In this document: positions 34,557-50,928 of the stretch, piece by piece
Position numbering within the stretch: position 1 is the stretch's first letter
Layout: the number at the start of each line of letters is the position of its first letter
Source of the DNA: Actinoallomurus purpureus
GTDB taxonomy: Bacteria > Actinomycetota > Actinomycetes > Streptosporangiales > Streptosporangiaceae
Length of the DNA: 64,000 nucleotides
Direction of reading: 5' to 3'
NCBI RefSeq assembly: GCF_024055795.1
Contig: NZ_JAMXMY010000016.1
Coordinates: 62,001-126,000 of the forward strand
Translations under genes and position numbers: made by a program
The notes under the pieces: model-generated
The model's database searches: none
The model's input: the letters and a program-made list of their open reading frames with translations, nothing else
Told to the model about the DNA's origin: nothing

Positions 34557-35006
34557 ATGTCCGCGCGTCCCATGGCCGGCATGGAGAAGCATCCCGACAT
34601 AGCCGAGCTCCGTGCCCGGTACGACCGCGTCGCCGAGACGACGTCCGCCCACATGGTGGACGGTCTCACCTTCCTGAGCGGCCTGTACCTGGCCATCTCG
34701 CCGTGGGTCATCGGATTCCACGCCCGTACCACCACGCTCACAGTGAACAATCTGCTCACCGGCCTCGCCGTCACCATGCTGGCAGTCGGGTTCGCGACGG
34801 CCTACGGCCGTACCCACGGCGTCGCCTGGGTCGTCCCCCTCATCGGCGTCTGGACGATCATTGCACCATGGGTGATCAGAGGTTCCATGGCCACCATGTC
34901 GACGATCCTCAACAACGTCATCACGGGGGCCCTCATCCTGCTGTTCGGGGTGGGCGCGGCCGGCATGGGGATGATGTCGAACAGGTCCTCGCGACGCCGA
35001 ATGTAG
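34557..35006 (+). CDS. SPW-repeat integral membrane protein
   Basis: A 149-residue membrane protein with four hydrophobic helices in two related halves; the first holds LAISPWVIGF (SPW at 48-50) and the second the variant IIAPWVIRG. This is the SPW-repeat family, common in actinobacteria and of unknown function. A ~30-residue charged N-terminal segment precedes the first helix. The ATG is preceded by a GAGGTGG stretch about eight bases away. It is a single gene: a terminator lies before it and a secreted hydrolase converges after it. Confidence 0.8.
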   Translation: MSARPMAGMEKHPDIAELRARYDRVAETTSAHMVDGLTFLSGLYLAISPWVIGFHARTTTLTVNNLLTGLAVTMLAVGFATAYGRTHGVAWVVPLIGVWTIIAPWVIRGSMATMSTILNNVITGALILLFGVGAAGMGMMSNRSSRRRM

Positions 35007-35251: not shown

Positions 35252-36703
35252 CTAACGCTTGCGGGCGAGGTACCCCGTGCTCTCGTACTGGTCGATGGCC
35301 AGGCCGAGCTTGGCGTACTTCTCGCTGTAGGCCACCGGGTGCGCGGCGGGCTGCGTCGGCGGGCGGTTGGGGTCCTGGTACTGGTCACCGAGGTTGGAGA
35401 AGATCACGATGATGTAGTTCCGGCCGTTCTTGCCGGGCAGGGACTTGACGATGCCCGCGTCACTGCCGGAGTTGTTGACCAGGCCGGTCTTGTGCGCGAA
35501 CGTCACCTCGGCCTTGTCGTTGCAGGGCCGCACGTCGTGGGCGTAGGCGTCGCCGTCGACCGTGACCGTGCCGTCGGCGGCGATCCACCGCGACGGGGTC
35601 ACCTGCGGGATGCCCGGAGCCGGGTAGTCCGCGCCGCACCAGTCCGTGGTGGACAGCACGTCGTTCATGCCCTGGTCGCCGAGCTCCTTCTTGAAGAACT
35701 CACGGGACGAGGGGCTGAGCACGTCGCTGGTGACCGCCTGGCCGTTCGGCGCCGTCCACACGGTGCCGGGCGCCCCGTTGATGAGCGTGAGCAGCTTGGC
35801 GGTGTCGAGGGAGCTCATCGTGACCGGGTTGCTCCAGTGCCCGCCGTTGGCCGGGTTGGTCTCCTTGACCTGCAGCGTCTCCAGACCCAGGTCCTGGAAC
35901 GTCTGGTTGAGGTCATTGACGGCGTCGTGGTCCCACAGCATCTTCAACAGCGCACACGAGGCCGGGTTGGAGGACCACGTCAGCGAGTCGTCCACGTAGT
36001 TGCGGATCGTGTTGCTCGTCGCACCACCGCACAGCGAACTGGTCGCGGTGGGGTTGTAGGCGTAGGTGTCGTCGAGCTTGATGACGCCCTTGTCGACCAG
36101 CCGCAGCACCCCGAAATTGATCATCAGCTTCAGGACCGAGGCCGGGTAGGGCAGCATGAAGTCGGTCGAGGCGTTCTCCCGCCCGGGCACCACGTCGATC
36201 GTGCCCTGAGCGTGGTTGGTGTACCAGCCCGCGTCGTCCCACTGCCGCCACCGCACGTCGCTGGTGTGGAGGTTCTTGTCGACCGAGACGACCTTGCCGT
36301 GCGGGTACTGCGGGCTCATCAGCACCGTGCCCGACGAGATCGGCCGGTTGTTCTGGTCGAGCTCGATGACGGTGGCGTCCAACTGCGGCTGCTGGGAGAT
36401 CGGCTGGTCGCCGGCCGCCGCGGCATACGTCTTGGCACGCTGCTCCGGCGTCTTGGCGTCCTTGTCGACCGAGTTCGCCTTCAACGTCCGCGCGGCGGCG
36501 GCCGTGGTGGGCGGATCGGTGTCGATGACCTCCTGGAACTTCAGGCCGTCCATCGTCTGCTGGAGCTTGTCCGCGATGGCGCTGATGGGCGGCGGGTCCG
36601 TGTCGGCGTGCGCCGCCCGAGTCGGCGCGACGGCCGACCCCAGCAGCGCGCCGGCGGCCACGAGACCGACCAGACCCCGATTACATATGCGAGAGATATG
36701 CAT
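35252..36703 (-). CDS. Secreted serine hydrolase of the class A beta-lactamase/PBP fold
   Basis: A 483-residue exported protein (signal peptide to ~residue 33, ending APTRAAHA). The catalytic SxxK is S189-V-L-K192 within YPASVLKLM, and the KTG triad is in FAHKTGLVNNSG. A ~150-residue N-terminal extension precedes the hydrolase domain. The family contains beta-lactamases and peptidoglycan hydrolases/esterases; the absence of a clear Glu166 omega loop motif leaves the substrate open. No good ribosome-binding site precedes the ATG at 36703, but the signal peptide begins here and the upstream frame is low-complexity. Confidence 0.75.
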   Translation of the reverse strand: MHISRICNRGLVGLVAAGALLGSAVAPTRAAHADTDPPPISAIADKLQQTMDGLKFQEVIDTDPPTTAAAARTLKANSVDKDAKTPEQRAKTYAAAAGDQPISQQPQLDATVIELDQNNRPISSGTVLMSPQYPHGKVVSVDKNLHTSDVRWRQWDDAGWYTNHAQGTIDVVPGRENASTDFMLPYPASVLKLMINFGVLRLVDKGVIKLDDTYAYNPTATSSLCGGATSNTIRNYVDDSLTWSSNPASCALLKMLWDHDAVNDLNQTFQDLGLETLQVKETNPANGGHWSNPVTMSSLDTAKLLTLINGAPGTVWTAPNGQAVTSDVLSPSSREFFKKELGDQGMNDVLSTTDWCGADYPAPGIPQVTPSRWIAADGTVTVDGDAYAHDVRPCNDKAEVTFAHKTGLVNNSGSDAGIVKSLPGKNGRNYIIVIFSNLGDQYQDPNRPPTQPAAHPVAYSEKYAKLGLAIDQYESTGYLARKR

Positions 36704-37070
36704 GATCGACACGCTAGTGAACAAGATCAACAGCGAGCCGATCTTTTCCGGATCTCCGTTATGTGATCTATCTCCCTGACCAAACCTGCAAGAAATCTCT
36801 CGCCCGGGATCCTCGCCGGCCCGATGCGACCGCCGGTCGCCGCGCGAAGGCGCACGGCGACCGCCAGTGGTCAAGCTCCGGGTATTTGCCGAAACGGCAA
36901 GAGGGTTCGCGTCGGTCCCGCCGCCGGCCGCATGCTCGGAATCGAGCCGTAGGGCCTCGGTGGGTGCGGTGTCCGCTCCACCGGCAGCGCCGGCCGAAGG
37001 CATGGCCGTCCTCGCTCGAGGGCGGGGCCGGAAAAGCGGATGAGCGATCGAGCGGCCGTATCGTTGCCGG
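36704..37070. other. Intergenic stretch without recognised gene
   Basis: About 370 bases between the divergent serine hydrolase and phosphotransferase-like genes. The first ~90 bases are notably AT-rich and probably hold the hydrolase promoter; the rest shows no coding frame with a start signal and no repeat. Confidence 0.5.
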
Positions 37071-38021
37071 GTGCCGAACGACTCCTTGCCGGCGGCGGCC
37101 ACGGAAGCGCAGTTCGCGACCGTGCGCCGAGACGAGGCGCGGCTCCGGCCGGGCGTCCTGGCGCTGTGCCGCCGCCTCGGGCGAAGCGGCGCCGACGTCA
37201 CGCGCTTTCCGGACGGCTCACTGCCCGTCTACGCCGTCGGAGACCGGCTCGTGCTCAAGCTCTATCCGCCGATCGCACGGGAGCGCGGGCAGATCGAGGA
37301 GCGTGTGCTGCGAACGATCGACGGACGACTGCCGGTCCCCACGCCGCGCGTCGAGGAGGCCGGTGGGTTCGGGACCTGGCGATACCTCCTGATGACGCGG
37401 TTGCGCGGCGAACCACTGACCGAGGTCTGGCCACGCACGGGCGAACGAGACCGCGACCGGCTCGCCGCACAACTCGGGACGGCCCTCGCCGCCCTGCATG
37501 AGATCCCCGTCCGCGCACTCGGCCCCCCGGACTGGCAGGGATTTCTCGCCGGTCAGCGGGTCGACTGCGTGGAACGCCAGCGCGCCCGCGGCCTGGACCC
37601 GGAGTGGGCGGCGCAGATCCCGGAGTTCCTCGACTCGGTGCCGCTTCCGCCGTCATCACCCGTGCTCCTGCACACGGAGGTCATGCGCGAGCATCTGCTG
37701 GTCGCCCCCGGGCCGGACGGCGGGTGGTCGCTGTCCGGGCTGTACGACTTCGAACCCGCCATGATGGGCGACCGCGAGTACGAGTTCGTCTCGGTGGGGC
37801 TGTTCGTCTCCCGCGGCGACCCGCGTTTCCTGCGCCACCTGCTCACCGCGTACGGATACTCCGGCGACCGGCTCGACGCGACGCTGCAGCGCCGCCTGCT
37901 CGCGTACGCGCTCCTGCACCGCTACAGCGACCTGTCCTGGTACCTGGAGGAGATGCCCGAACCGCCGGTGCCCAAGCTCGACGCGCTCGCCGCGCGCTGG
38001 TGGCCCCTGGATGCGCCATGA
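37071..38021 (+). CDS. Aminoglycoside-phosphotransferase-like kinase with altered catalytic motif
   Basis: A 316-residue protein of the APH/choline-kinase fold. Visible are the ATP-lysine strand VGDRLVLKLYPP, hinge LLMTRLRGEPL, the catalytic-loop region LLHTEVMREHLLV (~200) and the metal-binding DFEPAMMGDREYEF. In the canonical loop HxDxxxxN the Asp is replaced by Glu and the Asn by His, so either activity is changed or this is a subfamily with its own rules. Hygromycin-kinase-like proteins are the closest relatives I can name. Starts with GTG; no strong ribosome-binding site. Single gene. Confidence 0.6.
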   Translation: MPNDSLPAAATEAQFATVRRDEARLRPGVLALCRRLGRSGADVTRFPDGSLPVYAVGDRLVLKLYPPIARERGQIEERVLRTIDGRLPVPTPRVEEAGGFGTWRYLLMTRLRGEPLTEVWPRTGERDRDRLAAQLGTALAALHEIPVRALGPPDWQGFLAGQRVDCVERQRARGLDPEWAAQIPEFLDSVPLPPSSPVLLHTEVMREHLLVAPGPDGGWSLSGLYDFEPAMMGDREYEFVSVGLFVSRGDPRFLRHLLTAYGYSGDRLDATLQRRLLAYALLHRYSDLSWYLEEMPEPPVPKLDALAARWWPLDAP

Positions 38022-38194
38022 GCCCGCCGCGCAAGGCCATCTCATTCTGAGCGCTTAAGTCACAATGAAAATTTTTGATTGCCACTCAATCCGCCAGAAC
38101 GACGAGGCCCGTCCCCTCAATGATTTCGATCCCGTTATCCACAGTCCCGTCCGCGGGAACTCGGCGGCGCCGTACGGTCGGCCATGCTGAGACG

Positions 38195-39022
38195 GTGAAC
38201 AGTGACCGGTCGAATCCGCGGGAGCCGCCGCCTACGGCGTCGGAAAATGCGGTGCGCCTGGGGGCACTGATCCACTCGGGCCGCCTGGAGCGGCGGTGGT
38301 CGCTGCAGGACCTCGCCACCGCGTCCGGCGTCAGCGTCGCGACGATCTCACTCGTGGAGCGGGCGAGGGTCGGTGTCACCCTCGCCATGGTCGAGAAGAT
38401 CCTCGGCGCGATGGGGCTCGCGCTGCATCTGGAGGCCGAGCCCATGTGGGCGGGGATCGACACCGCGATCAGCGACACGGCGGGCAGACCCCTTGCGGAT
38501 CGCATGGCCGACTGGAAGATCGAACTGACATCGTTCGTGTCGTGGTTCGCACAGTTTCCCTGTCCTTACATGGCGGACGGCCTTATGGCGGCGGCGCTGC
38601 AGGGCGCTCCCGTGCCGGTGACCGCCTTCCAGATCGCGGTGGCCGACGACGATGACACGTTGGACGAGCTGATCTTCTTGCTGAACGACATGAAGGCTCA
38701 GCAATGGATGGCCAAATGGGCGGATTGGGTGGGCTATTCGAATGATCCTCGCGATTCCGAGACCCAGCCGGCGCGCTATCGCTGCATCCATGGCGAGCTG
38801 CACGTACGACTCGTCAAAAGTCTTTCTCCGACCCTGTGGGTGCAGCTCGATCAACTTCCCACCGGCGACTACCCGCCGAGATCACGGCTGCGGGAGATCC
38901 CCGTGCTCTCTGAGGTCAGACTGCCTGTCGCGCCGCTGACCGAGATCGAGACCGAAGGCCGCCACGCCCGGCGCATACTCGTCCGCATGCGGGCGCGGAC
39001 GAGTGCCCGGCCGGACCGCTGA
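38195..39022 (+). CDS. XRE-type HTH protein with nucleotidyltransferase-like C-terminal domain
   Basis: A 275-residue protein. HTH of the Cro/CI type at ~22-75 (RLERRWSLQDLATASGVSVA, TISLVERARVGVTLAMVEKI). The C-terminal ~180 residues (ADGLMAAALQGAPVPVTAFQ, ARYRCIHGELHVRLVK, RLPVAPLTEIE) have the spacing of minimal nucleotidyltransferase folds seen in AbiEii/type IV toxin-antitoxin proteins, but the catalytic GS...DxD motif is not evident; this reading is tentative. The gene and its AT-rich upstream (38040-38115) are lower in GC than neighbours, a sign of transfer. It converges on the Mrr-like nuclease gene with 17 bases between them. GTG start; an upstream start at 38075 is possible. Confidence 0.55.
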   Translation: MNSDRSNPREPPPTASENAVRLGALIHSGRLERRWSLQDLATASGVSVATISLVERARVGVTLAMVEKILGAMGLALHLEAEPMWAGIDTAISDTAGRPLADRMADWKIELTSFVSWFAQFPCPYMADGLMAAALQGAPVPVTAFQIAVADDDDTLDELIFLLNDMKAQQWMAKWADWVGYSNDPRDSETQPARYRCIHGELHVRLVKSLSPTLWVQLDQLPTGDYPPRSRLREIPVLSEVRLPVAPLTEIETEGRHARRILVRMRARTSARPDR

Positions 39023-39039
39023 TCGTTCCAGCGCATCGA

Positions 39040-39675
39040 TCATCCAAGCGGCGGTGGCCGGTCTCCGAGGAGCCAGTCGCCGAGACGGTTCCTGTCGATG
39101 AGGGTGATGCCGCAGAGGGCGGCCTCCTCGACCGCGTTCCTGCTGAAGGTGTTGTTGGTGACGAAGACGCCGCGCCGGCCGGCGTACGTGCCGTGGACGG
39201 CACCGACGAGACGCTGGATCTCCGGGCTGCCGACGGTCTTCGCCTGCCGCTTGCACTGCACGGCGATGGCCACGCCCTCCGGGCTGACCGCGATGACGTC
39301 GACGCCCCGGTCGCCGGAGCGGCCGGTCACCTGGACCCGCTTGTAGCCGTCCCGCCGCAGCAGGTCGGCGACGTGGTCCTCGAACTGCGCGCCGCTCATC
39401 GCGTCGATCACCTCGAGGCGCGAGCTCGCCGCGAGCGTCCGGAGCCATTGCCGGTGCCGGTGCCGGGCCCACAGGATGAGCGCCGGAACGGCGAGGACGA
39501 TCGCGACGCCGATGAGCACTAGGGCGTTTCGCAGGCCGACGGCCGCGCTGAAGACCACCCCGACCCCGAGAGCGAGCACGATCAGCCCGGTCTGCGAACT
39601 CGACGCCGACGGCTTCCGGCGCCTGGATCTCGACGCGGATGACTTCCGGCGCTTGGGCGGGGCGGTGCGGGCCAA
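39040..39675 (-). CDS. Membrane-anchored Mrr-type restriction endonuclease-like protein
   Basis: A 211-residue protein: a basic Arg/Lys/Ser-rich leader, two closely spaced TM helices (~30-48 and 50-69), then an Mrr catalytic domain. The PD-(D/E)xK-like site looks intact: E99 (SGAQFEDHVADLL), D126 (GDRGVDVIA) and Q140-C-K142. Such domains cut DNA, often methylated. With two helices in front, the nuclease faces the cytoplasm at the membrane. The TTG start has GGAGG five bases upstream. It begins 12 bases after the stop of the giant AAA ATPase gene, so it is the last gene of that operon. Confidence 0.8.
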   Translation of the reverse strand: MARTAPPKRRKSSASRSRRRKPSASSSQTGLIVLALGVGVVFSAAVGLRNALVLIGVAIVLAVPALILWARHRHRQWLRTLAASSRLEVIDAMSGAQFEDHVADLLRRDGYKRVQVTGRSGDRGVDVIAVSPEGVAIAVQCKRQAKTVGSPEIQRLVGAVHGTYAGRRGVFVTNNTFSRNAVEEAALCGITLIDRNRLGDWLLGDRPPPLG

Positions 39676-39687
39676 GGTGACCTCCGG

Positions 39688-42600
39688 TCAGGGGCGGCCG
39701 CCGGTGGCGCGGGTGATGGCGGTCTCGACGGCGGCGACGCGGTCGGCGAGGAGCCCGAGCGCGCCGACGGCCCTGGTCATCGGTTCGTCGTCCGCGCCGC
39801 CGAGGGCCTGGGAGCGCTGGAACGCCGCCTTGACCGTCGCCCAGCGCTCGGACTGCCCGGCGGTGAGCGTGCGGCGCAGCTCGCCCAGCTTGAGTAGGGT
39901 GGCCTCGGCGCCTGAGGCGAGGGTCTGGGCCTCGCCGACGTAGTGGTCGTCGATGACGGCCTCCATCTCGGCCTCGTTCATGACCGGCACGATCCGCTCG
40001 GCGAGCTTGTTCATGTTCCGGTACGAGCCCTGCAGCTGGAACGGCGGCTCGGTACGCGAGGCGTCGGCCTGGGCGGCCGAAGAGATGTACGCCCGGTTGG
40101 CGGACAGCACGACCTCCCGGACCCGCAGCAGCCTGCGCATCACGGCGGTGATCTGCTCGACCTCCGGGCCGGAGTACGGGTGGGCGAGCCGGTCCGGCGA
40201 CACGGTGGTGTCGCCCTGCGCGAGCCGTACGAACAGCTCGACGTCGCCCCGCTCCCGGGTGGACAGCGGCGCGAGCACCGGGTTGGAGGTGAGGGCGTTC
40301 TCCAGGTAGCTCAGCGCGAACAGGTCCTCGCGGCCGGACAGCACGTCGCCGAGGTTCCACACGTCGGCGCGGTTGGCCAGCATGTCGGGGATGCGGAAGC
40401 GCTGCCCGGACTCGGTGTACGGGTTGCCGGCCATGCAGACCGCGAAGCGCTTGCCGCGCAGGTCGTACGTGCGGGTGCGGCCGTCCCAGACGCCCTCGAT
40501 GCGGCGCTGGGCGTCACAGAGGGAGATGAACTTCTGCAGCAGCTCCGGCGAGGTGTGCTGGATGTCGTCGAGGTAGAGCAGCGCGTTGTTGCCCATCTCG
40601 AGCGCGAAGTTGATCTTCTCGACCTCCTGGCGGGCGGTCGCGTCGGGCGCGTCCGCCGGGTCCAGGGAGGTGACCGACGAGCCGAGGGCCGGCCCGTTGA
40701 CCTTGACGAACATCAGGCCGAGCCGGCCCGCGACGTACTCCATCAGCGTCGTCTTGCCGTAGCCGGGCGGGGAGATGAGCAGCAGCAGGCCCATCTGGTC
40801 GGTGCGCTTGGCGTCGCCGGCGGCCCCGAGCTGCTTGGCGAGGTTGTCGCCGATGAGCGGCAGGTACACCTCGTCCAGCAGCCGGTTGCGCACGAACGCG
40901 CTGAGCACGCGCGGCCGGTACTCCCCCAGGCGCAGCCGCTCCCGCTCCGCCGCGACCAGCTCGCCGCGCAGCCTCTGGTACGCCCGGTAGGCGGGCACGC
41001 GCTCGTCACGGAACCGGCGGATCCGGGCGACGCTCTCGTCCAGGCGCAGGTCCAGGCGGCGGCCGCTGATCCGCGGGTGCGCGCCGAGCAGGCCCTCGAC
41101 GGTCGCGGTAAGGGGCGCCGACACCTCGTACCGGTCGAGCGGGCCGCACAGCTCGATCGCCACGGCCTCGGCGAGGTCGTCGGCCGGGGCGCCGGTCGTG
41201 GCGAGGTACGAGCCGAGCCACGCCTCGATGAGCTGGTGACGGGGCGCCAGGCCGCCGCCCTTGAGGGCGCGCAGGTCGTCGCGGTAGCCCGGGGAGTCGC
41301 CGAGCGCCGTACGGAAGCCGTCGAGCAGCGAGCGCGCCCCGGCGCCGGTGACGAACCCGGCGGGCTCGCTCGCGAGCTCCTCGAAGAGGTACTCCCCGAC
41401 CAGGTCACCGGTGTCCCCCGGCGGGAGGATCCGGGTGGCGGCGTCGGGGCCGTGCAGGGCGTGGGCGGTCAGGAAGGCGAGCGCGGCAGCGGTCAGCTCG
41501 GTGCGGAGCGCCCCGGCCGCGGGCGCGTCGCCGAAGACGGCGCGGGCGCGGGCCAGCGACGCGGCACGGGTCGTCCACGATCCGCGCGCCGCCTCCTCGG
41601 TGCCGTGCGCCCAGAACAGCTGGGCGGCGGCGCGGGCGGCGGGCGGGTAGCGCAGCAGACCGGCGCCGTCGTGCAGCCGCAGCAGCGCGTCGAGGATCAG
41701 CGCGGCGTCGTGGTCGTGCACGCCGCGCTCGTACCCCTCGTCGTAGCGGGCCTCGGCGGCGGTGCGGACGACGGCGAGCAGATCCCCTTCTTCGGCCGCA
41801 CGGCGCAGGACGTCCCGGGGCGTGGCGGCGAGGACCTCCGCCGCCAGGTACTCCCCGCGGTACACCTCGGGCGTCTCGGAGACCAGCGTCTGGTCCCAGT
41901 ACGGGCGGGTCGCCCCGAAGGCGGGGTCGCGGACCGGTGACCGGTAGTCGGTGGCGGTGACGGCGTACGCCATGCCGCCGTCGTGCGGGACGAGGGTCAG
42001 GTCGACGGGCTGGGTGTTGACCGCGAACCGGTGCGCGCCGAGCCGGATGCTCTCGCCGCCGTCCTCGTACAGGTCGACGCGGTCGCGCAGGGTCCGGCCC
42101 GCCTCCTGCCGGGCGGTCTTGAGCAGGCCGTCGAGCTCCTCGGCGCGTACGGCGTCACCCGCGGCGCGGAGCTGCTCGACGACGGAGCGCACCTTCTCCA
42201 CCATCGGATCGGCGGCGAAGTAGGCGTTGATCTCGTCGAGGGAGCCGAGGGCGACGGCCCGGCGGCGTACGCCGGCGAGGATCCTCGACGCGGACTCGGC
42301 CAGCCGGTCGGCGCGGCGGGCGCGTTCGTCCAGCAGCGTCTGCTTGCGCGCGGAGAACGCCTCGTAGGCCTCTTCGCGCTTGGCGGTGAGCTCGGCGACG
42401 AAGTCGTCGAACTCGGCGAACCGGGACTCGAGGTTCTCCAGCTGGAGCATCACGCGGCCGAGCTGGTCGTCGCAGGCGTCGGGCGTGTCCGCCATGGCCA
42501 GCGCGCCGGTGACGGCCTGGCCGAGCAGGGCGAACTCGGCCGCGAACGCCGCGCGTCCCTCGGCGTCCAGGAGCTCCCGGCGGCGGGCGTCCAGGGTGGC

Positions 42601-44625
42601 CTGGGACCGGTTGATACCGGCGAGCACCTCGCCGACCCGCTCCAGGATCGAGGTGCGCACGGTCGCGTCGGCGATGTCGAGAGTGCCGACGATGTCGGTG
42701 ACGACCTCCAGGCCCTCGTACTGCTCGGCCAGCCGCTCGAGGATCGGGGCGGCCTCGGCCGTCGTGGCCATCGCCTCGATCGCGGCGAGCAGCCGGTCGA
42801 TCTCCTCGTGGTAGGCGGTGAACGCCTCCGGCTCGCGCAGGAACTCGACCGCGCGGCGGCCGGTGGCGGCCAGCTCGTCGCTCAGCCGGTCGGCCAGGCC
42901 GTCGATCCGCGCGAGGTCGGCGTACCGCATGTCGCGGAGGGTGACGAGGCGGCCCTGGGCACGGCGCAGCCCGGTCAGCCGGGTCACCCAGCCGTCGGCG
43001 GTGTCCGGAGAGTCGCCGCGGGTCAGCCGGATCAGGGTGGTGATCTTCTCGTCGGTCTCGGCAAGCGCGGCGGCGGCCTGCGCGGTGAGGCGCTGGACGG
43101 TCTCGCACTCCTCGAGCACCTGCCCGGCCGTGGCCCGTACGTCGGTGAGCGGGGCGCGCAGGTCGCCGAGTTCCGGGTCGCCGAGCCAGTGGAAGTGATC
43201 GAAGGCGCGCTCGCAGCCGGCGATCAGCGCCTCGAACACGCCCGCCGAGGGCGTGGTCTCCTCCACCATGCGGGCCACCGACAGGCCGTCGGAGATCCCC
43301 CGGACCAGGTCGGCGTTGCCCACGCGTTCCAGCGGCCCGGTGCCGGCCGGCTGGGCCGCCGCGTACGCGTCCGACAGGTACGGCGTCTGCCAGACCTGCA
43401 TCGTGTGCACGCGGGTCGGCTCGCCTGCGTCCGCGCGGAAGACGACGAGCGTGCCGTCGTCGAACAGCGAGTGGCCGTGGCAGGAGATCGGGGTGGCGAC
43501 CTCCTTGCGGATCACGTTGTACGGCAGCAGGAGGTACCGGCCGGCCTCGCGGGCGTGGAAGACGTACAGCACGTCCTCACCGTTGGTGGAGCGGATGACC
43601 CGCTCGTACTCCAGCCGGTCCACGTCGGTGTCGAACGTCTTGGCCGCGCCGGTCACCAGGTAGTAGCCGCCGGGGAAGATGATGCCGTGGTCCTCCGGCA
43701 GCCGCCGGCAGGCCTGCCCGATGCCGTCGAGGCGCACGACCGTCTTCACGCGCGTGTTGAAGACGAGGTAGCGCCAGTCGTTCTCCTTGTACGGGCGGAC
43801 GCGCAGCAGGATGAGCGCGCCGACGCGGGCGTACTGGACCTCGGCGTCGGCGAGACTCTGCAGCGGCTCGTCGACCGGCTCGCGGTAGATGCCCTCGCCG
43901 GTCTCGGTGTTGTTCTCGACCTTGACGGTGAGGTCGCCGCCGACCGTCTCGACGAAGACCTCGTCCTCGATCGAGATGTGCGGGTGGCGGCCGAGGACGT
44001 GGTCGTCGCGGGTGGTCTCGACCCACTCGAAGTCGTACGGGGGCGGGAAGACGTGGTCGGTCTCGCCCAGGTTGTCCTGATAGGTGGCGGTGCCGTCGAC
44101 GTCGACGGTCCAGCGCAGCACGCGGGTGTCGTGCTCGGCGGCCAGACCGGTCTGGAACACCGCCAGGAGCCGGCCCTCCGGCCTCCGCAGCTGCAGCAGC
44201 CGGGCGTCGCGGTAGTAGCGGTACAGCTCCCCGAAGTCGCGCTCGAAGCCCGGGTCGCGCAGCAGTCCCGGCGCGTCGTCGGTGGCCTCGAACCGGAACT
44301 CATCCCCGTCCCAAACGAACCGGTACAGGGCGAACACGTCGCCGACGGCCGTCTGCGGCCGCAACCCGATGAACACGTTGAAGCCGAACAGCATGAGCCC
44401 GCCGACCGCGACGATGTCGCGCGGCACGCAGTTGTGCTCGGTACGGATCCTTTCGGTGCCGACCAGCCGCAGCTCCGTGCCGCCGAACACCTCCAGCCGC
44501 CGGGCGTTCAACGCCTCGGCCCGCCGGACCAGCTCCTTGGCCTGCTCGCCGAGCCGGGCGCGGAGCACCTCGTAGGTGCCCGCGTCCAGCTCCGGCGCGG
44601 CAGGCGTCTCCCCGCCCTCGGTCAC
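39688..44625 (-). CDS. Giant AAA ATPase of the so-called DNA-repair ATPase family
   Basis: A 1645-residue protein. Residues 1-~480 are a beta-rich domain of unknown type (GHPHISIEDEVFVETVGGDL, HGIIFPGGYYLVTGAAKTFD), ~490-900 are mostly helical/coiled coil, and the C-terminal part (~1250-1560) is a MoxR-like AAA module with Walker A PPGYGKTTLMEYVAG (~1287), Walker B ALLYLDDIQHTSPE (~1350) and AGNPYTESGQRFRIPDML. I recall this architecture being annotated as DNA repair ATPase and found beside flotillins; experimental function is unknown to me. GTG start with AAGGA five bases upstream. It follows the flotillin gene by 47 bases and precedes the membrane nuclease by 12. Confidence 0.75.
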   Translation of the reverse strand: MTEGGETPAAPELDAGTYEVLRARLGEQAKELVRRAEALNARRLEVFGGTELRLVGTERIRTEHNCVPRDIVAVGGLMLFGFNVFIGLRPQTAVGDVFALYRFVWDGDEFRFEATDDAPGLLRDPGFERDFGELYRYYRDARLLQLRRPEGRLLAVFQTGLAAEHDTRVLRWTVDVDGTATYQDNLGETDHVFPPPYDFEWVETTRDDHVLGRHPHISIEDEVFVETVGGDLTVKVENNTETGEGIYREPVDEPLQSLADAEVQYARVGALILLRVRPYKENDWRYLVFNTRVKTVVRLDGIGQACRRLPEDHGIIFPGGYYLVTGAAKTFDTDVDRLEYERVIRSTNGEDVLYVFHAREAGRYLLLPYNVIRKEVATPISCHGHSLFDDGTLVVFRADAGEPTRVHTMQVWQTPYLSDAYAAAQPAGTGPLERVGNADLVRGISDGLSVARMVEETTPSAGVFEALIAGCERAFDHFHWLGDPELGDLRAPLTDVRATAGQVLEECETVQRLTAQAAAALAETDEKITTLIRLTRGDSPDTADGWVTRLTGLRRAQGRLVTLRDMRYADLARIDGLADRLSDELAATGRRAVEFLREPEAFTAYHEEIDRLLAAIEAMATTAEAAPILERLAEQYEGLEVVTDIVGTLDIADATVRTSILERVGEVLAGINRSQATLDARRRELLDAEGRAAFAAEFALLGQAVTGALAMADTPDACDDQLGRVMLQLENLESRFAEFDDFVAELTAKREEAYEAFSARKQTLLDERARRADRLAESASRILAGVRRRAVALGSLDEINAYFAADPMVEKVRSVVEQLRAAGDAVRAEELDGLLKTARQEAGRTLRDRVDLYEDGGESIRLGAHRFAVNTQPVDLTLVPHDGGMAYAVTATDYRSPVRDPAFGATRPYWDQTLVSETPEVYRGEYLAAEVLAATPRDVLRRAAEEGDLLAVVRTAAEARYDEGYERGVHDHDAALILDALLRLHDGAGLLRYPPAARAAAQLFWAHGTEEAARGSWTTRAASLARARAVFGDAPAAGALRTELTAAALAFLTAHALHGPDAATRILPPGDTGDLVGEYLFEELASEPAGFVTGAGARSLLDGFRTALGDSPGYRDDLRALKGGGLAPRHQLIEAWLGSYLATTGAPADDLAEAVAIELCGPLDRYEVSAPLTATVEGLLGAHPRISGRRLDLRLDESVARIRRFRDERVPAYRAYQRLRGELVAAERERLRLGEYRPRVLSAFVRNRLLDEVYLPLIGDNLAKQLGAAGDAKRTDQMGLLLLISPPGYGKTTLMEYVAGRLGLMFVKVNGPALGSSVTSLDPADAPDATARQEVEKINFALEMGNNALLYLDDIQHTSPELLQKFISLCDAQRRIEGVWDGRTRTYDLRGKRFAVCMAGNPYTESGQRFRIPDMLANRADVWNLGDVLSGREDLFALSYLENALTSNPVLAPLSTRERGDVELFVRLAQGDTTVSPDRLAHPYSGPEVEQITAVMRRLLRVREVVLSANRAYISSAAQADASRTEPPFQLQGSYRNMNKLAERIVPVMNEAEMEAVIDDHYVGEAQTLASGAEATLLKLGELRRTLTAGQSERWATVKAAFQRSQALGGADDEPMTRAVGALGLLADRVAAVETAITRATGGRP

Positions 44626-44672
44626 GTGGTTCCTTCGGTCCTCGTGGTCGTCCGGTCGCTCGGTCCGGTCGC

Positions 44673-46748
44673 TCAGTTCTCGATCACTGCCATGGAGGAG
44701 ACGGCGGCGTCGGCGACGCCGAGACGCTCGGCCTGGTCGAGCAGCTCACGCGCCTTCTCACCGTCGGCGCCTCCGGCCTTGATCCGCTGCATGAGCAGCG
44801 CGGACAGGGTCAGGTTCTTCACGTCGTCGGTGTTGATCGACCCGGCGAGCCGGGCGAGGTCCTCCGGCAGGCTGCGCGAGCCGTTCAGCCAGGGACCGGC
44901 GAGCCGCTGCGCCACGTCGGAGTGCTCGACGAACCCGTCGACGCCCTTGCCGACGCTGATCGCGCCGACGACCTTGTCGAAGAAGGCGGTGTCGCCGCCG
45001 ACGATGTCGATGTCGGCGTTCTGCAGGCCGGTGGCCAGCACGGACGCCTGGGCCTCGACGACCTCCCGCTGCACGGTGAGGCCGGCGAGCCGGATCTCCT
45101 TCTCGGCCTCCAGGCGCAGGCGGTACTCCTCGTGCCCACGAGTGGCGTCGTCCATCGCGGCCATGCCGGCGGCCTTGTCGGTGAGCCCCTCCGCCTCGGC
45201 CTTGAGCTTCTCGCGGATCCCGTCCGCGTCGGCCAGGGCCTTCTCGCGGTTCGCGATGGCCGCCGCGCGACCGGTCTTCTCGATGGACTCGGCCTCGGCC
45301 AGGGCCTTCTCGCGGTTGACGGCGGCCTCGGCGCGGCCGACCTTCTCGACCGCCTCCGCGTCGCGCTCACGCACCTGGACGTCGGCCAGGCCCGCGGCGG
45401 CGGCCTCCGCCTGGATGCCCTCGGCGAGCCGGATCTTGGCCTGGGCGTCGAGCTCGGACGTCTTCTGCCGGGCCTCGGCCAGCAGGACCTCCTCGCGGGC
45501 CTTGAACTTGGCGGCCTCCTCGGCGGCCTCGGCCGCCTTGATGCCCTTGACCAGGTTCTCCTGGGCCTCCGCCTCGGCCTGGATGATCACGGCCTGGCGG
45601 GTCCGCTCGGCCTCCTCGACGACCCGCAGCTTCTTGATGATCTCTTCCTGCTCGGCGACGGTCTTCTCGACCGCGATCCGCTCGCGGACCACCTCGGCGA
45701 TCTCCCGCTTCTCCGCCTCGACCTCTTTGTCCTTGGCGATGCGGGACAGCTCGGTCTCCCGTTCGCGGGCGATCACCTCGAGCATGCGGTCCTTCTCGAT
45801 CCGCTCGTTCTCGACGGCGATGACGCGTTCCTTGTTCTTCTCCGCGACGGCGATCTCGCGATTGCGGTTCTCCTGCTGGACGCCCAGCTGCTCGTCGGTG
45901 CGGATGTTCGCCGTCTGCGAGGTCAGCCGCTCCTCGGCCTGGACCTTGGCGATCTCGGCCTCCTCGCGGGCCCGTACGGTCTCGATCTCCCGCTTCTTCT
46001 TGACCTCCGCCTCGGCCTGCCGGCGTTCGAGCTCCAGGATGGCCTCCCGCGCGTCGACGTTCTGGCGGGTGATCTCCTTCTCCTCGTTGCGCTGGAACTC
46101 GTTGGTGCGCACGTGCTCGATGGCGGTGAGCTCGGTGATCTTCCGGATGCCCTGGGCGTCCAGGATGTTCGTGGGGTTGAGGCTCTGCAGCGCCGTCTGC
46201 TCGAGGTGGTCGATCGCCGCGTCCTCGAGGTGGTAGCCGTTCAGGTCGGTGCCGATGAGCTGCACGATCTGGTCGCGGAACTCGTGCCGGTGCGTGTACA
46301 GGTCGACGAAGTCCAGCTGCTTGCCGACGGTCTTCAGCGCCTCGGAGAACTTCGCGTTGAACAGCGTCTGCAGCGTCTCCTCGTGGCTGGCCCGCTGCGT
46401 GCCGATCGCCTGTGCCACCTGGATGACGTCCTCGATGGTCTTGTTGACCCGGACGAAGAACGTGATCTTGATGTCGGCGCGGATGTTGTCCCGGCAGATG
46501 AGGCCCTCGTGCCCGCTCCGCTCGATCTCGATGGTCTTCACCGAGATGTCCATCACCTCGGCCTTGTGCAGCACGGGCAGCACGATGGCGCCGGTGAAGG
46601 TGACGTCCACCTTTTTGATCTTGGAAACGATGAGGACCCGGCCCTGTTCGACCTTGCGGAAAAGCCGGCTGAACAGGTACGCCGTGCCGAGTGCGACGAT
46701 CAGGATCGCGCCGACGAGGACGGCGATCGCGATGCCGATGGAGTCCAT
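44673..46748 (-). CDS. Flotillin-family protein (YqiK-like)
   Basis: A 691-residue protein: N-terminal TM segment (IGIAIAVLVGAILIVALGTA), an SPFH/band-7 domain (~30-230, ending near EKEITRQNVDAREAILELER), a very long coiled coil rich in Ala/Glu/Lys/Arg (~215-560) and a C-terminal flotillin segment (ASVLATGLQNADIDIVGGDT). Flotillins oligomerise into membrane microdomain scaffolds. The ATG at 46748 (AAGGA six bases upstream) is preferred to the TTG just before it. The NfeD/YqiJ-like gene directly upstream and the AAA ATPase gene downstream form a co-directional set. Confidence 0.9.
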   Translation of the reverse strand: MDSIGIAIAVLVGAILIVALGTAYLFSRLFRKVEQGRVLIVSKIKKVDVTFTGAIVLPVLHKAEVMDISVKTIEIERSGHEGLICRDNIRADIKITFFVRVNKTIEDVIQVAQAIGTQRASHEETLQTLFNAKFSEALKTVGKQLDFVDLYTHRHEFRDQIVQLIGTDLNGYHLEDAAIDHLEQTALQSLNPTNILDAQGIRKITELTAIEHVRTNEFQRNEEKEITRQNVDAREAILELERRQAEAEVKKKREIETVRAREEAEIAKVQAEERLTSQTANIRTDEQLGVQQENRNREIAVAEKNKERVIAVENERIEKDRMLEVIARERETELSRIAKDKEVEAEKREIAEVVRERIAVEKTVAEQEEIIKKLRVVEEAERTRQAVIIQAEAEAQENLVKGIKAAEAAEEAAKFKAREEVLLAEARQKTSELDAQAKIRLAEGIQAEAAAAGLADVQVRERDAEAVEKVGRAEAAVNREKALAEAESIEKTGRAAAIANREKALADADGIREKLKAEAEGLTDKAAGMAAMDDATRGHEEYRLRLEAEKEIRLAGLTVQREVVEAQASVLATGLQNADIDIVGGDTAFFDKVVGAISVGKGVDGFVEHSDVAQRLAGPWLNGSRSLPEDLARLAGSINTDDVKNLTLSALLMQRIKAGGADGEKARELLDQAERLGVADAAVSSMAVIEN

Positions 46749-46772
46749 CAATGGTCCTTCTTACGGGGGAAT

Positions 46773-47351
46773 TCAGCTGGCTGGACGATGAGGATCGAGC
46801 TCGGCGTCATACGGCATCACCCAGAAGAACTGGCCGTCGGCGTCGTAGTCGAAGATCAATGCGGTACTGCCTGCTTTGAGGATCTCTTCGCCCGATTGGT
46901 TCCGTTGCTGGCGAACCTGAATGACGGCGGCCGAGCCGTCGGCGGCGCGCACCTCCGCCTGACCGAACGTCAGGTCTACCCGGCCGGTGCGGATGACGCA
47001 CATCCGGCCGACGAAGTCCTGCCGGGAGGGCAGTCTCTCCTCGGGGATCATGTAGCGCAGGGGCCGCATGAGCAGCCGGGTGACCAGGCCGGAGGCGACG
47101 AGCGCGGCGGCGAGCACCCCGATCGCCGGGACGGTCCCCGTCAGGTCCTCGCGGCGCAGGAGCACGGTGCCGGCCACGCCGGCGAACCACGCGAGCGCCG
47201 TGAACAGTGACAGCGCCACCGCCGTGACCATGGTCGCGGCCGCGTCCAGCAGTCCGACGACGACCAACAGCCAGTAGGCGAGGACGATCGCCAGGAGGGC
47301 ACCGAGGACGACGGCCGGAAAAGCGAGCGCCGCGTGGATGAATTCAGTCAT
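46773..47351 (-). CDS. NfeD/YqiJ-like membrane protein with OB-fold domain
   Basis: A 192-residue protein with three to four TM helices (to ~residue 95), then a cytoplasmic-facing OB-type beta domain (QDFVGRMCVIRTGRVDLTFG, AEVRAADGSAAVIQVRQQ). Proteins of this layout are encoded next to flotillins and are thought to work with them in membrane microdomains, as E. coli YqiJ-YqiK. GGAGG lies five bases before the ATG. First gene of the four-gene operon; the flotillin start follows its stop by 24 bases. The longer frame reaching 48320 is a shadow of the upstream gene. Confidence 0.8.
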   Translation of the reverse strand: MTEFIHAALAFPAVVLGALLAIVLAYWLLVVVGLLDAAATMVTAVALSLFTALAWFAGVAGTVLLRREDLTGTVPAIGVLAAALVASGLVTRLLMRPLRYMIPEERLPSRQDFVGRMCVIRTGRVDLTFGQAEVRAADGSAAVIQVRQQRNQSGEEILKAGSTALIFDYDADGQFFWVMPYDAELDPHRPAS

Positions 47352-47512: not shown

Positions 47513-47562
47513 CCGACGCCAGGTCGTCCACGCGATCCTCCGCGTGGACGACCTGGCGTCGG
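47513..47562 (-). terminator. Very strong hairpin terminator after the DUF4157 gene
   Basis: Perfect 22-bp stem (CCGACGCCAGG...CACGCG and complement) with 6-base loop ATCCTC, 17 bases beyond the stop of the minus-strand DUF4157 gene. It insulates the flotillin operon from it. Confidence 0.75.
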
Positions 47563-47578: not shown

Positions 47579-50500
47579 TCAGAAGAGACTGTCGCTCCAG
47601 CGGATCTCCTTGATGCCCGGCATGGTGCTGTCGTATCGCAGGACGTGCTGCTTGCGGTCCGACAGGAAGATGCTGAGGGTGTAGACGTCGCCCTCCTCGT
47701 CGACGAACTTCAGGTACATCAACCCCGAACCGATCCCCTTGGGTCCCTGCGCGTCGACCTCGAGGACGTAGTCGTAGTAGGCGGCGGTGGTGTCCAGCTT
47801 GATCGAGTAGACGCGGGCGCCGCTGTTCCCGACGATGACGCGGCTGAGGTCGGTGCTGCCGTTGATCTCCACCGTGTCCCCGGGGAACAGGGATCCGCTC
47901 CTGGCGACGGCCTTCCCCTTGACCCTTCCGGCATCGGTGGTGGAGAACGCCACGCGTGACGCATCGGCCGGGACGAGATGGAAGATCGCGCCATGGGCGT
48001 CGACCACCCACGGGGTGCCGTCCGGCCCGACCGCGATACGCGTGGCCCGGCCGGGAATGCGATCCCACTGCTGACCGCTCCAGGCGTAAATGTCGTTCCC
48101 GCCGCCGTCGGAGTCCTTGTTGGTGCCGATCGCCCAGGCGGTCGGGAGGACGCCGGTGGACACGGCGATGTCCGTCGCCAGGCCGGGAACGGCGCCCCAC
48201 CCGCTGCCCAGGGGTCCGCCCGGGTTCAGTCTGGCGATCCCCCCGGCCGCGTCGGCGACCCAGGGCAGTCCGCTCGGAGCCACCGAGATCGCGACGGCGG
48301 CACCTCCGGCCTGTTCCCACCGCTCCCCGGTCCAGCGCAGGATCGGATGTCCCTTGCCGTCGACGTCGGTCCGGCCGGTCACCCAGACCGACCCGTCGGC
48401 ACCCGCGCCGATGTCACTGGCGCCGCGCACCTGCTCGCCCGCGGAGTTCTTGCCGCTGGGGATTCCGCCCAGGTCGATGCCCGTCCAGTCCCGGCCGTTC
48501 CACCGCCAGATCCCTCCGTCGGCGCTCACGACCCACGGGGTGCCGGATCCGTCCACCGCGATGCGGGCCCCGCCGCCCGGAGCCGGAACCCAGGAGCTCC
48601 CCTCCAGCCGCTGGATCTTCTTGTCCTTCGTGACGGCCCAGACCGATCCGTCGCCGCCGACGGCGATGTCACTCGCCTCACCCGGGATCTGGACCCACCG
48701 CCACCCGCCTGTGGTGTCGATGGAGATCTCGCCGATGCGCGGTGACGCGACACGGACGCCCGCGATCCTGAAGTTGTCGAACAGCCCGATCGCGGTGTCG
48801 CGCTGGGCGTCGTTCCAGTGCTCGAGCGAGAGCATCGTGTCGCCGGCGCCACGCACGCTGGTCGGGAACCGGTTGAAGATCTGCGCCGTGGTGATGCTCG
48901 TGCCGCCATGAGCGATCAACTCGAGGATGGACTGCTGCGACAGGTGCGCGGTCTCGCTCGCGATCCGCACGCCGTCCCCGCCGTCGAGCATCGTGGAGTC
49001 GCCGTAGATCTCGAACGCCGCCGGATGGTCCACCGACGCGACGTGAAGTCCGCTCTTGTTGAAGTGGTCGTGCAGCACCCCGCTGGACATCTGCACGCCG
49101 GTGTTCCGCATGAGCGTCAGGTAGTGCTTGTACGCGTCCTCCTGAGAGCGGCGGCCGTCGGCCCTGACTCCCGACACGTCCCTCCGCCGCTGCGCCGCCC
49201 ACTGCTCGTCGGCCGTCTGGGGATCGCGGACCACCCCCCGCTTCGCCGGATCCAGGAACCCGTCGTAGAGACCGCGCGCCGCCAGTCCGCTCTGACGGGC
49301 GGTGGTCATCGTCTGGACCATCTTCCAGTCGGCCACCGGCATGAGCTTGCCCATGCCGGCCGCCCACTCGACGAACCACTGCATGACCAGCGTCTTGTTG
49401 ACCAGATGTCCGGCCGCGAACGAGTCGTGCAGGAAGTGGTCGGCGTAGCCGTGGTTCATCCAGGCGAGGTAGGTCAGTCTCTCCTTCGCGGCGGCGCTGC
49501 CCGCGTGGTGCGCCTGCGTCGCGTGGTCGCGGGCGATCAGATAGAACTGCTCCCACCGATACCACGAGCTCGGCGCGAAGTGACAGGCGTTCCGGCCGAC
49601 CACCGCGCCGTAATGATCGGTCCCTTTCGGACCGATTTTCTTCGTGAGCTCGTCGAGGGCCATCGTCTCGATCAACAGATCGAAGAAGTCCCAGCCGAGG
49701 TTCATGACCACCGCGTTCTTGAAGTGCACCGAGCCCGGCGTCACCGGAGTGTCCAGGAGCCTGTTCACCCAGAGGTACGATTCCTGCCGGACCGCCTGGA
49801 GGATTGGTTCGAGAATCGCCTTCGGCTGACTGTCGAGTGCCGCCGGATTGGCCAGATAATCGGCCAACGTGTTGAGCTCTCCGTAGGTGACGAGCAGTCC
49901 GCTGCCCCTGAGCCGGAGCGTACGGATGGAAGAGAATTTACCTCTGATCGCTTCGGGCGTGACCGCGTCCGGGTCGTTCCACCACATCTCCAGGAACACC
50001 CGCAGCTCCTCGAGTTTCGTCTTACGGTCTCCCCTCCTCATGGTGATCGCGTCGAGATCGGCGGGCAGCGCGTCGCCGAGCAGGCGATGCTCCCATGAGG
50101 CATGACGCTGCAAAACCAACTGCTCCGAGTCCGCCAGCCGGCGGACGGACGGCTTCACCGCCCGCGGCGGCGGCGCGCCGCGGAGGAAGGCGTCGGCGAG
50201 CGAACGCGCGTCCGACTCGCAGGTGTCGGCGGGATCCGAGACGGACGCCCCGGCCGCGTAGGGCAGGCGCGCACCGGCCTGCTGCACCGCGTGGGCGGTC
50301 TCGTGGACGAGCAGCCGGAGCCCGGCGCGGGAGTGCGGAGCGAAGGCGCCCGCCGCGAAGAAGACGTCGGCGCCGACCGTCACCGCCTCCGCGGAGAGGG
50401 CGCGGCAGATGCGATCGGCGTTCTCGTCGGCGTTTATCCGGAGTCGGGACAGGTCGGCGCCGTGAAAGGTCTCCAGTACCGACCTCAAGCGCCCTTCGAT

Positions 50501-50590
50501 CCGCTCACCGGCGCCCAGAGCGCCCCGGATTTGACGATCGAGGGATTTCGCGATGCGGTTTTGGGCAGCGTTCAACGACGAATCGACCAT
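47579..50590 (-). CDS. Large DUF4157 / phospholipase-C-like / tectonin-propeller protein (candidate injection-system effector)
   Basis: A 1003-residue protein without signal peptide. Order: DUF4157 domain (~45-110) with the zinc-peptidase-like H96-E-T-A-H100 and VQQ; a linker; an alpha-helical domain at ~300-470 whose motif AWMNHGYADHFLHDSFAAGH resembles zinc-dependent phospholipase C/S1-P1 folds; tectonin/WD-like repeats at ~600-870 (IPGEASDIAVGGDGSVWAV, GVGARIAVDGSG-type blades, WVVDAHGAIFHL); and a C-terminal beta domain of ~120 residues. DUF4157 is known as a hallmark of extracellular contractile injection system (eCIS) cargo, so this may be a translocated toxin. The ATG at 50590 has GAAGG seven bases upstream; the longer frame is noise. 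Single gene, terminated by a strong hairpin. Confidence 0.75.
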   Translation of the reverse strand: MVDSSLNAAQNRIAKSLDRQIRGALGAGERIEGRLRSVLETFHGADLSRLRINADENADRICRALSAEAVTVGADVFFAAGAFAPHSRAGLRLLVHETAHAVQQAGARLPYAAGASVSDPADTCESDARSLADAFLRGAPPPRAVKPSVRRLADSEQLVLQRHASWEHRLLGDALPADLDAITMRRGDRKTKLEELRVFLEMWWNDPDAVTPEAIRGKFSSIRTLRLRGSGLLVTYGELNTLADYLANPAALDSQPKAILEPILQAVRQESYLWVNRLLDTPVTPGSVHFKNAVVMNLGWDFFDLLIETMALDELTKKIGPKGTDHYGAVVGRNACHFAPSSWYRWEQFYLIARDHATQAHHAGSAAAKERLTYLAWMNHGYADHFLHDSFAAGHLVNKTLVMQWFVEWAAGMGKLMPVADWKMVQTMTTARQSGLAARGLYDGFLDPAKRGVVRDPQTADEQWAAQRRRDVSGVRADGRRSQEDAYKHYLTLMRNTGVQMSSGVLHDHFNKSGLHVASVDHPAAFEIYGDSTMLDGGDGVRIASETAHLSQQSILELIAHGGTSITTAQIFNRFPTSVRGAGDTMLSLEHWNDAQRDTAIGLFDNFRIAGVRVASPRIGEISIDTTGGWRWVQIPGEASDIAVGGDGSVWAVTKDKKIQRLEGSSWVPAPGGGARIAVDGSGTPWVVSADGGIWRWNGRDWTGIDLGGIPSGKNSAGEQVRGASDIGAGADGSVWVTGRTDVDGKGHPILRWTGERWEQAGGAAVAISVAPSGLPWVADAAGGIARLNPGGPLGSGWGAVPGLATDIAVSTGVLPTAWAIGTNKDSDGGGNDIYAWSGQQWDRIPGRATRIAVGPDGTPWVVDAHGAIFHLVPADASRVAFSTTDAGRVKGKAVARSGSLFPGDTVEINGSTDLSRVIVGNSGARVYSIKLDTTAAYYDYVLEVDAQGPKGIGSGLMYLKFVDEEGDVYTLSIFLSDRKQHVLRYDSTMPGIKEIRWSDSLF

Positions 50591-50928
50591 TGTTCTGCCT
50601 TCCAGATGTCCCGGCGCGGCCTGACACTTCCCCGAGTTTCCGATCAAGGCACCCGATAGATGCGTGACCGGATGGAAACGCCCCGTGAGCGAATCACATC
50701 GAGGCGCATGCGACAAGAGGCCGAAGATCGCCTGACAGGCTCGCGAATGACGCATGCACGCAGGACGCCCGGCGGCGACCGTGAAGGTGATAGGAGTCTG
50801 TCCACCGTGGTCACCGAACGCGGTCCACCGGCCCTGGTGGCACACAAGGCCCGGGTGATCCAGAAGAAGCCCGCGAGGATGCCTGGCTGGTTGTACAGTC
50901 AACCTTCTTCCTACGAGAGGAGGCGTGC
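50591..50928. other. Divergent promoter region
   Basis: About 340 bases between the DUF4157 gene and the PH-like gene. It has no supportable gene. An inverted repeat GGTTG-TACAGT-CAACC (50889-50904) lies 25 bases before the plus-strand start and may be an operator. Confidence 0.4.

Follow-up and report, generated by a model that had tools for sequence, protein, structure and literature searches.

Genes and protein families at the locus

The window analyzed here is a stretch of 64,000 nt from Actinoallomurus purpureus (contig NZ_JAMXMY010000016.1, positions 62,001 to 126,000), in which four genes on the minus strand encode, from 5' to 3', a YqiJ/NfeD-like membrane protein, a flotillin, a giant AAA+ ATPase, and a membrane protein with an Mrr-type nuclease domain, further called TM-Mrr. 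The first three genes constitute one conserved unit, and the locus probably represents a known type of SPFH-AAA+ operon for membrane remodelling, in whose variable 3' flank TM-Mrr is a species-private neighbour. The layout given in the original prediction, with intergenic gaps of 24 (YqiJ-like/flotillin), 47 (flotillin/ATPase), and 12 (ATPase/TM-Mrr) bases, a 22-bp hairpin, and a convergent XRE-family gene, has been confirmed by a check of the open reading frames (ORFs) and by folding.

The ATPase gene (39688-44625, minus strand) encodes 1645 amino acids with Pfam matches to DUF3686 (residues 31-479, E-value 4.7e-217), DUF7902 (residues 600-684, 9.8e-29), and AAA (from about residue 1271, 1e-6); no protease domain was found in it by the Pfam scan. 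Its Walker motifs are intact, Walker A (PPGYGKT) and the DDIQ stretch being invariant in all 25 aligned relatives. The full ATPase profile has no match at E≤0.001 among PDB sequences, and the profile of the AAA part matches chains of Rix7, NVL, RuvB, and p97 (best 3.5e-5) in approximately 30-70 columns around Walker A only.

The flotillin (44673-46748, minus strand, starting at ATG, one codon after the TTG of the listed ORF) is an SPFH protein of the YqiK type. The family profile is similar to E. coli YqiK over 301 columns (E-value 1.4e-27, probability 99.8), and of 24 family members, eight match the Band_7 domain (threshold E≤0.1, strongest match 1.4e-12). The protein from the window itself has no Pfam match at E≤0.01 and a weak match to FloT from NCBIfam (2.8e-4, 20.1 bits at the cut-off of 700), and the PDB sequence search with the flotillin profile gives no match at E≤0.001. 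A transmembrane segment and a coiled coil can be seen in the flotillin by eye.

The YqiJ-like gene (46773-47351, minus strand) encodes 192 amino acids with a hydrophobic N-terminal half. The NfeD domain of Pfam is matched neither by the protein from the window (E≤0.01) nor by any of 27 family members (E≤0.1), and no PDB match was obtained with the family profile at E≤1. The similarity of this profile to E. coli YqiJ alone is weak (E-value 0.023, probability 2.1, compared with 0.34 for the unrelated control HldE), while the match to a four-member profile, comprised of YqiJ and proteins from the same position (DUF1449) in the Hymenobacter, pQBR103, and Deinococcus records, is strong (E-value 1.8e-32, probability 99.9). 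Since the Deinococcus member also touches the Pfam NfeD family, below the cut-off (18.5 of 29.1 bits), the label NfeD-like is valid in the YqiJ sense, and the C-terminal region is likely of the NfeD/OB type, judging by the YqiJ match. Thus, the profile comparisons support both names, flotillin and NfeD, that had been assigned from the sequence of the window.

Conservation and known relatives of the three-gene unit

Relatives of the ATPase were collected by a scan of GTDB genomes, in which 152 were confirmed and 80 loci were kept for neighbourhood counts. As 78 of these loci are from Actinomycetota by record title, they are not independent. Moreover, the home-made gene callers based on guanine-cytosine (GC) content missed the YqiJ-like gene of the window, and clusters 4, 7, and 16, which were set aside, consist of ORFs antisense to the flotillin or YqiJ-like gene, so the gene counts produced by these callers are rough.

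A flotillin gene lies directly upstream of the ATPase gene on the same strand in 76 of 80 loci, and in the remaining four (L044, L055, L057, L080) the contig ends at most 603 nt away. The distance from the flotillin stop codon to the first aligned ATPase residue has a median of 104 nt (range -16 to 544). The YqiJ-like gene was identified by hidden Markov model (HMM) search in 62 of 80 loci. In contrast, no locus of the 80 has a match to TM-Mrr beside the ATPase, even with the threshold relaxed to E≤10. Hence, as originally predicted, the flotillin and the ATPase form one conserved unit with the YqiJ/NfeD-type partner, but this unit is of three genes, not four, and the suggested four-gene system fails by the refuting condition that the original prediction had set for it, adjacency of the Mrr gene in this genome alone. 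Within the genomes searched, where the Mrr gene is adjacent to the ATPase in this genome only (0/80 loci; Mrr protein in one of eight genomes of the genus), the nuclease should be left out of the unit.

Outside this set of loci, the AAA part of the ATPase has counterparts of 61-66% identity in plasmid-collection records from Pseudomonadota, Deinococcota, and Bacteroidota. Mobility of the ATPase gene was considered and rejected: 12 of 72,556 plasmid records match (E≤1e-20), a set that includes chromosome-sized ones, and none of 50,697 phage records matches at E≤1e-10. DUF3686 is present in 20 of 60 relatives' genomes and in none of 14 control genomes, so the trio is common, yet far from universal.

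The three gene kinds had been said to be known separately, as flotillin-NfeD pairs and as the ATPase. This is out of date, as Ravi et al. 2024 (PMC11237479), in the accessible part of the paper, treat all three together, describing operons of band-7/flotillin, YqiJ/YuaF, and beta-propeller/coiled-coil AAA+ genes, with or without PspA, and proposing a role in the assembly of membrane-linked complexes; the abbreviated form lacking PspA is the more widely distributed one. The locus in the window has the same three gene kinds and corresponds to this abbreviated form, differing by TM-Mrr located 12 nt downstream, which the same part of the paper does not mention. Assignment of the ATPase of these operons to the DUF3686 family is our own match, the name DUF3686 not having been found in the literature search.

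In particular, the SPFH protein here has the expected transmembrane segment, band-7 domain, and coiled coil (by the YqiK profile, by Band_7 in relatives, and by eye for the remainder), and the small membrane protein corresponds by the four-member profile to the YqiJ/YuaF type, for which three transmembrane helices would be expected. The AAA domain and DUF3686 are seen in the ATPase, where the coiled coil and beta-propeller of the published operons would be expected. PspA and CesT/Tir, characteristic of the full form and not required in the abbreviated one, are not observed in the operon; the sole PspA match of the genome is on another contig (C48), and CesT/Tir was not searched for. Two other records match the full form: that of a Hymenobacter sp. 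DG25B plasmid, with a row of a Tir-type chaperone, PspA, DUF1449, a hypothetical protein in the flotillin position, and a DNA repair ATPase, and that of the Pseudomonas plasmid pQBR103, with YjfI, PspA, six more genes, SPFH, and a DNA repair ATPase, as well as extra polyamine-type genes. Our trio falls into a published, experimentally open family, highly conserved across phyla, in which a flotillin scaffold has its own giant AAA+ ATPase.

A further relative is the yqiJ-yqiK pair of E. coli (NC_000913.3), with the same gene order, a gap of 26 nt (24 nt here), and a homologous flotillin; unlike the locus in the window, it has no AAA+ gene annotated in the 3 kb past yqiK.

Besides the trio, one more gene family recurs, that of a PucR-type regulator, which is encoded on the opposite strand upstream of the trio in 21 of 80 loci, all of them from Streptomyces or [Kitasatospora] by title, and likely regulates the trio in these loci. 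Three further loci have such a gene downstream, either immediately 3' of the ATPase gene and codirectional with it (L041) or further off (L024, L032), and in L077 a PucR-type gene overlaps the ATPase stop codon by 4 nt. All ten scanned regulators contain GGDEF_2 and HTH_30; no regulator of this type was found beside the trio in the window.

The TM-Mrr gene and the variable 3' flank

The TM-Mrr gene (39040-39675, minus strand) encodes 211 amino acids with a full-length Mrr_cat domain (Pfam, 6.2e-33, profile positions 1-115 of 115). In the translation, two hydrophobic stretches and the residues GDRGVD ... QCK, which we take to be the Mrr active-site motif (D ... QxK), are seen by eye, in agreement with the original prediction of an intact active site. 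Compared with Mrr-type restriction endonucleases (PF04471), TM-Mrr likewise has the complete catalytic domain but differs by the N-terminal membrane segment, assigned by eye; DNA cutting is a predicted activity. The similarity to PADLOC families is that of the domain (PDC-S02, 1.3e-21; ZorD, 7.8e-17; a type IV enzyme, 1.6e-15). A match to PspM from NCBIfam was set aside (18.6 bits at the cut-off of 80, residues 16-75 only), and a PDB match to one repeat protein was considered spurious. The genome has a second Mrr_cat match (G000:C10:66739-67065, 1.9e-14), residing within an open frame of 744 residues.

Among eight genomes of the genus, the ATPase is present in seven and the Mrr protein in one, that of the window. 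In the six other ATPase loci of the genus (L083-L088) flotillin is adjacent, and Mrr was not found within approximately 1.5 kb. The DNA homology with A. spadix, 90.4% over window positions 47506-39696, ends at the 3' end of the ATPase gene and resumes at position 34976, these points being separated in A. spadix by about 570 bp. Therefore TM-Mrr, the XRE gene, and the genes for an APH-fold protein and a beta-lactamase-like hydrolase (the latter three at 35252-39022) form a stretch that is missing at this site of the relative. Next to the 3' end of the ATPase gene, A. soli has the start of a methyltransferase gene in place of TM-Mrr, and A. iriomotensis and Actinomadura sp. DC4 have yet other sequences there. 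A search for repeats bordering the private block gave short or imperfect matches only, read as chance, and no clear attachment (att) sites or insertion sequence ends.

Relatives of TM-Mrr, as the whole protein or the domain, are present in 31 of 396 genomes of the phylum, including that of the window (E≤1e-15, seven candidates scored in most genomes), the best-scoring other relative being 44% identical over the domain. In 29 loci of these relatives (L089-L117), with flanks of at most 1.5 kb, the ATPase, flotillin, and XRE genes were not found.

TM-Mrr is most likely a species-private neighbour at the variable 3' boundary of the operon, a later arrival rather than a part of the machine. The absence of the Mrr protein from the other genomes of the genus favours its gain here over loss elsewhere. 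TM-Mrr would most likely work independently, as a DNA-cutting enzyme of the Mrr type. Nothing found ties it to the flotillin/ATPase machine, and apart from the question of the 3' flank the locus is an ordinary one.

Proposed function, alternatives, and flanking genes

The proposed remodelling function can be outlined as follows. The YqiK-type flotillin and its YqiJ/NfeD-type membrane partner would build a scaffold along the membrane's inner side, on which the DUF3686 ATPase may dock. Its ATP hydrolysis would then drive the assembly, dismantling, or extraction of protein complexes linked to the membrane in envelope stress; PspA, encoded elsewhere in the genome, would perhaps take part. Such a mode of action would be akin to that of HflKC with FtsH, which also combines an SPFH scaffold with an AAA+ ATPase (general background; see also PMC13086221). 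The ATPase family is different, however, and the ATPase here has no protease domain by Pfam. If the proposed function is true, the trio would be an SPFH-AAA+ machine distinct from HflKC-FtsH. According to Ukleja et al. 2024 (PMC11222466), the flotillin of S. aureus holds unfolded proteins without ATP; pairing with an ATPase would, we suggest, supply this holding activity with an energy-driven step.

Several observations weigh against this explanation. We infer the remodelling function, the docking, and the link to stress, and the literature search found no functional test of the flotillin/giant-ATPase family. The YqiJ-like HMM has no match in 18 of 80 loci; in seven of these the contig breaks off within the flotillin gene or shortly before it, but the 11 others, all from Streptomyces by title, are not cut. 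Databases annotate the ATPase as "DNA repair ATPase" or "ATPase involved in DNA repair". Finally, TM-Mrr may share the transcript of the trio, given the 12-nt gap, the GGAGG preceding its start codon, and no promoter or terminator found by a consensus scan of 38900-39800.

The same closeness, together with the common direction of the genes and the likeness of the Mrr domain to domains of defence proteins, would fit the original suggestion of a four-gene membrane module for DNA uptake, phage injection, or plasmid defence. In such a module, the flotillin raft and the ATPase would feed incoming DNA to the tethered nuclease. The data do not bear this out, and we regard such a module as very improbable: the nuclease accompanies the ATPase in none of the 80 related loci, it has no match in the seven other genomes of the genus, and the 29 loci of its own relatives, with at most 1.5 kb of flank, show neither ATPase nor flotillin. 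Moreover, in a set of ten ORFs that flank the operon (28387-53673, less the GH38 ORF at 30173-34408), no member matches a PADLOC family at E≤0.001, and a defence island at this site is rejected on this ground. The database name would instead make the ATPase a membrane-anchored DNA-repair enzyme, for which a nuclease is a natural partner; beside the Pfam and record names, the weak similarity of the AAA part to RuvB agrees with that. Remodelers of the Rix7, NVL, and p97 type match this part at least as well, however, and a match confined to the columns around Walker A hardly discriminates between a remodeler and RuvB. In two informative annotated records from other phyla, the neighbours are PspA, chaperone-type, and SPFH genes, not named repair genes, and a repair function seems quite unlikely.

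The stretch 3' of the ATPase gene could also be an accessory slot, whose species-specific genes, Mrr being one such cargo, are co-expressed with the flotillin scaffold and perhaps recruited to it. Of the 77 loci in which 400 nt or more follow the ATPase gene, 25 contain an ORF on the same strand whose start lies in the interval from 20 nt upstream to 60 nt downstream of the ATPase stop codon, with mostly singleton Pfam families (methyltransferase, CBS, TIR, NfeD, Zn peptidase, WD40), TrkA_N occurring in three and the PucR type in two. Still, the ORFs were counted with a home-made codon-composition filter, a second home-made caller gives 21 same-strand genes within 50 nt of the ATPase in 80 loci, and only one of the 25 ORFs, a methyltransferase, matches PADLOC at 1e-5. 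Ordinary operon ends drift likewise, and the 25 of 77 is a raw count. We consider an accessory slot unlikely, and it is harder still to credit that an open slot adds cargo to the membrane scaffold such that here an anchored nuclease would be gathered into patches and cut incoming DNA. The membrane-remodelling trio with an independent nuclease gene remains the preferred explanation. Single downstream ORFs match TIR/ThsB-like, WD40, and NfeD domains.

The hairpin upstream of the operon (47513-47562, minus strand) has a 22-bp stem and a 6-nt loop. A 91-nt stretch containing it folds at -62 kcal/mol, compared with -36.97 (standard deviation 3.04) in 200 shuffles (z-score -8.23), and so the predicted stem is real. 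As an operon boundary it is less convincing: it starts 16 nt past the stop codon of the upstream gene, and because of this proximity it is probably the terminator of that gene's transcript rather than a mark of the operon. The upstream gene itself (47579-50620, minus strand) encodes an eCIS-core domain (6.7e-21) and tectonin repeats (4.1e-20) by Pfam; no match to the phage-sheath family PF04984 was found in the genome of the window. In a Pfam scan of ten ORFs at 28387-55637, permease components, a GH38 mannosidase, an SPW protein, a TetR regulator, an alpha/beta hydrolase, and a beta-lactamase-like hydrolase were recognized, and three ORFs had no match. The convergent XRE-family gene (38075-39022, plus strand), lying outside the conserved unit, contains HTH_31 (Pfam, 4e-7); its protein has only weak PADLOC matches (best 0.0018), and on contig C22 of the same genome the gene has a relative with 55% identity.

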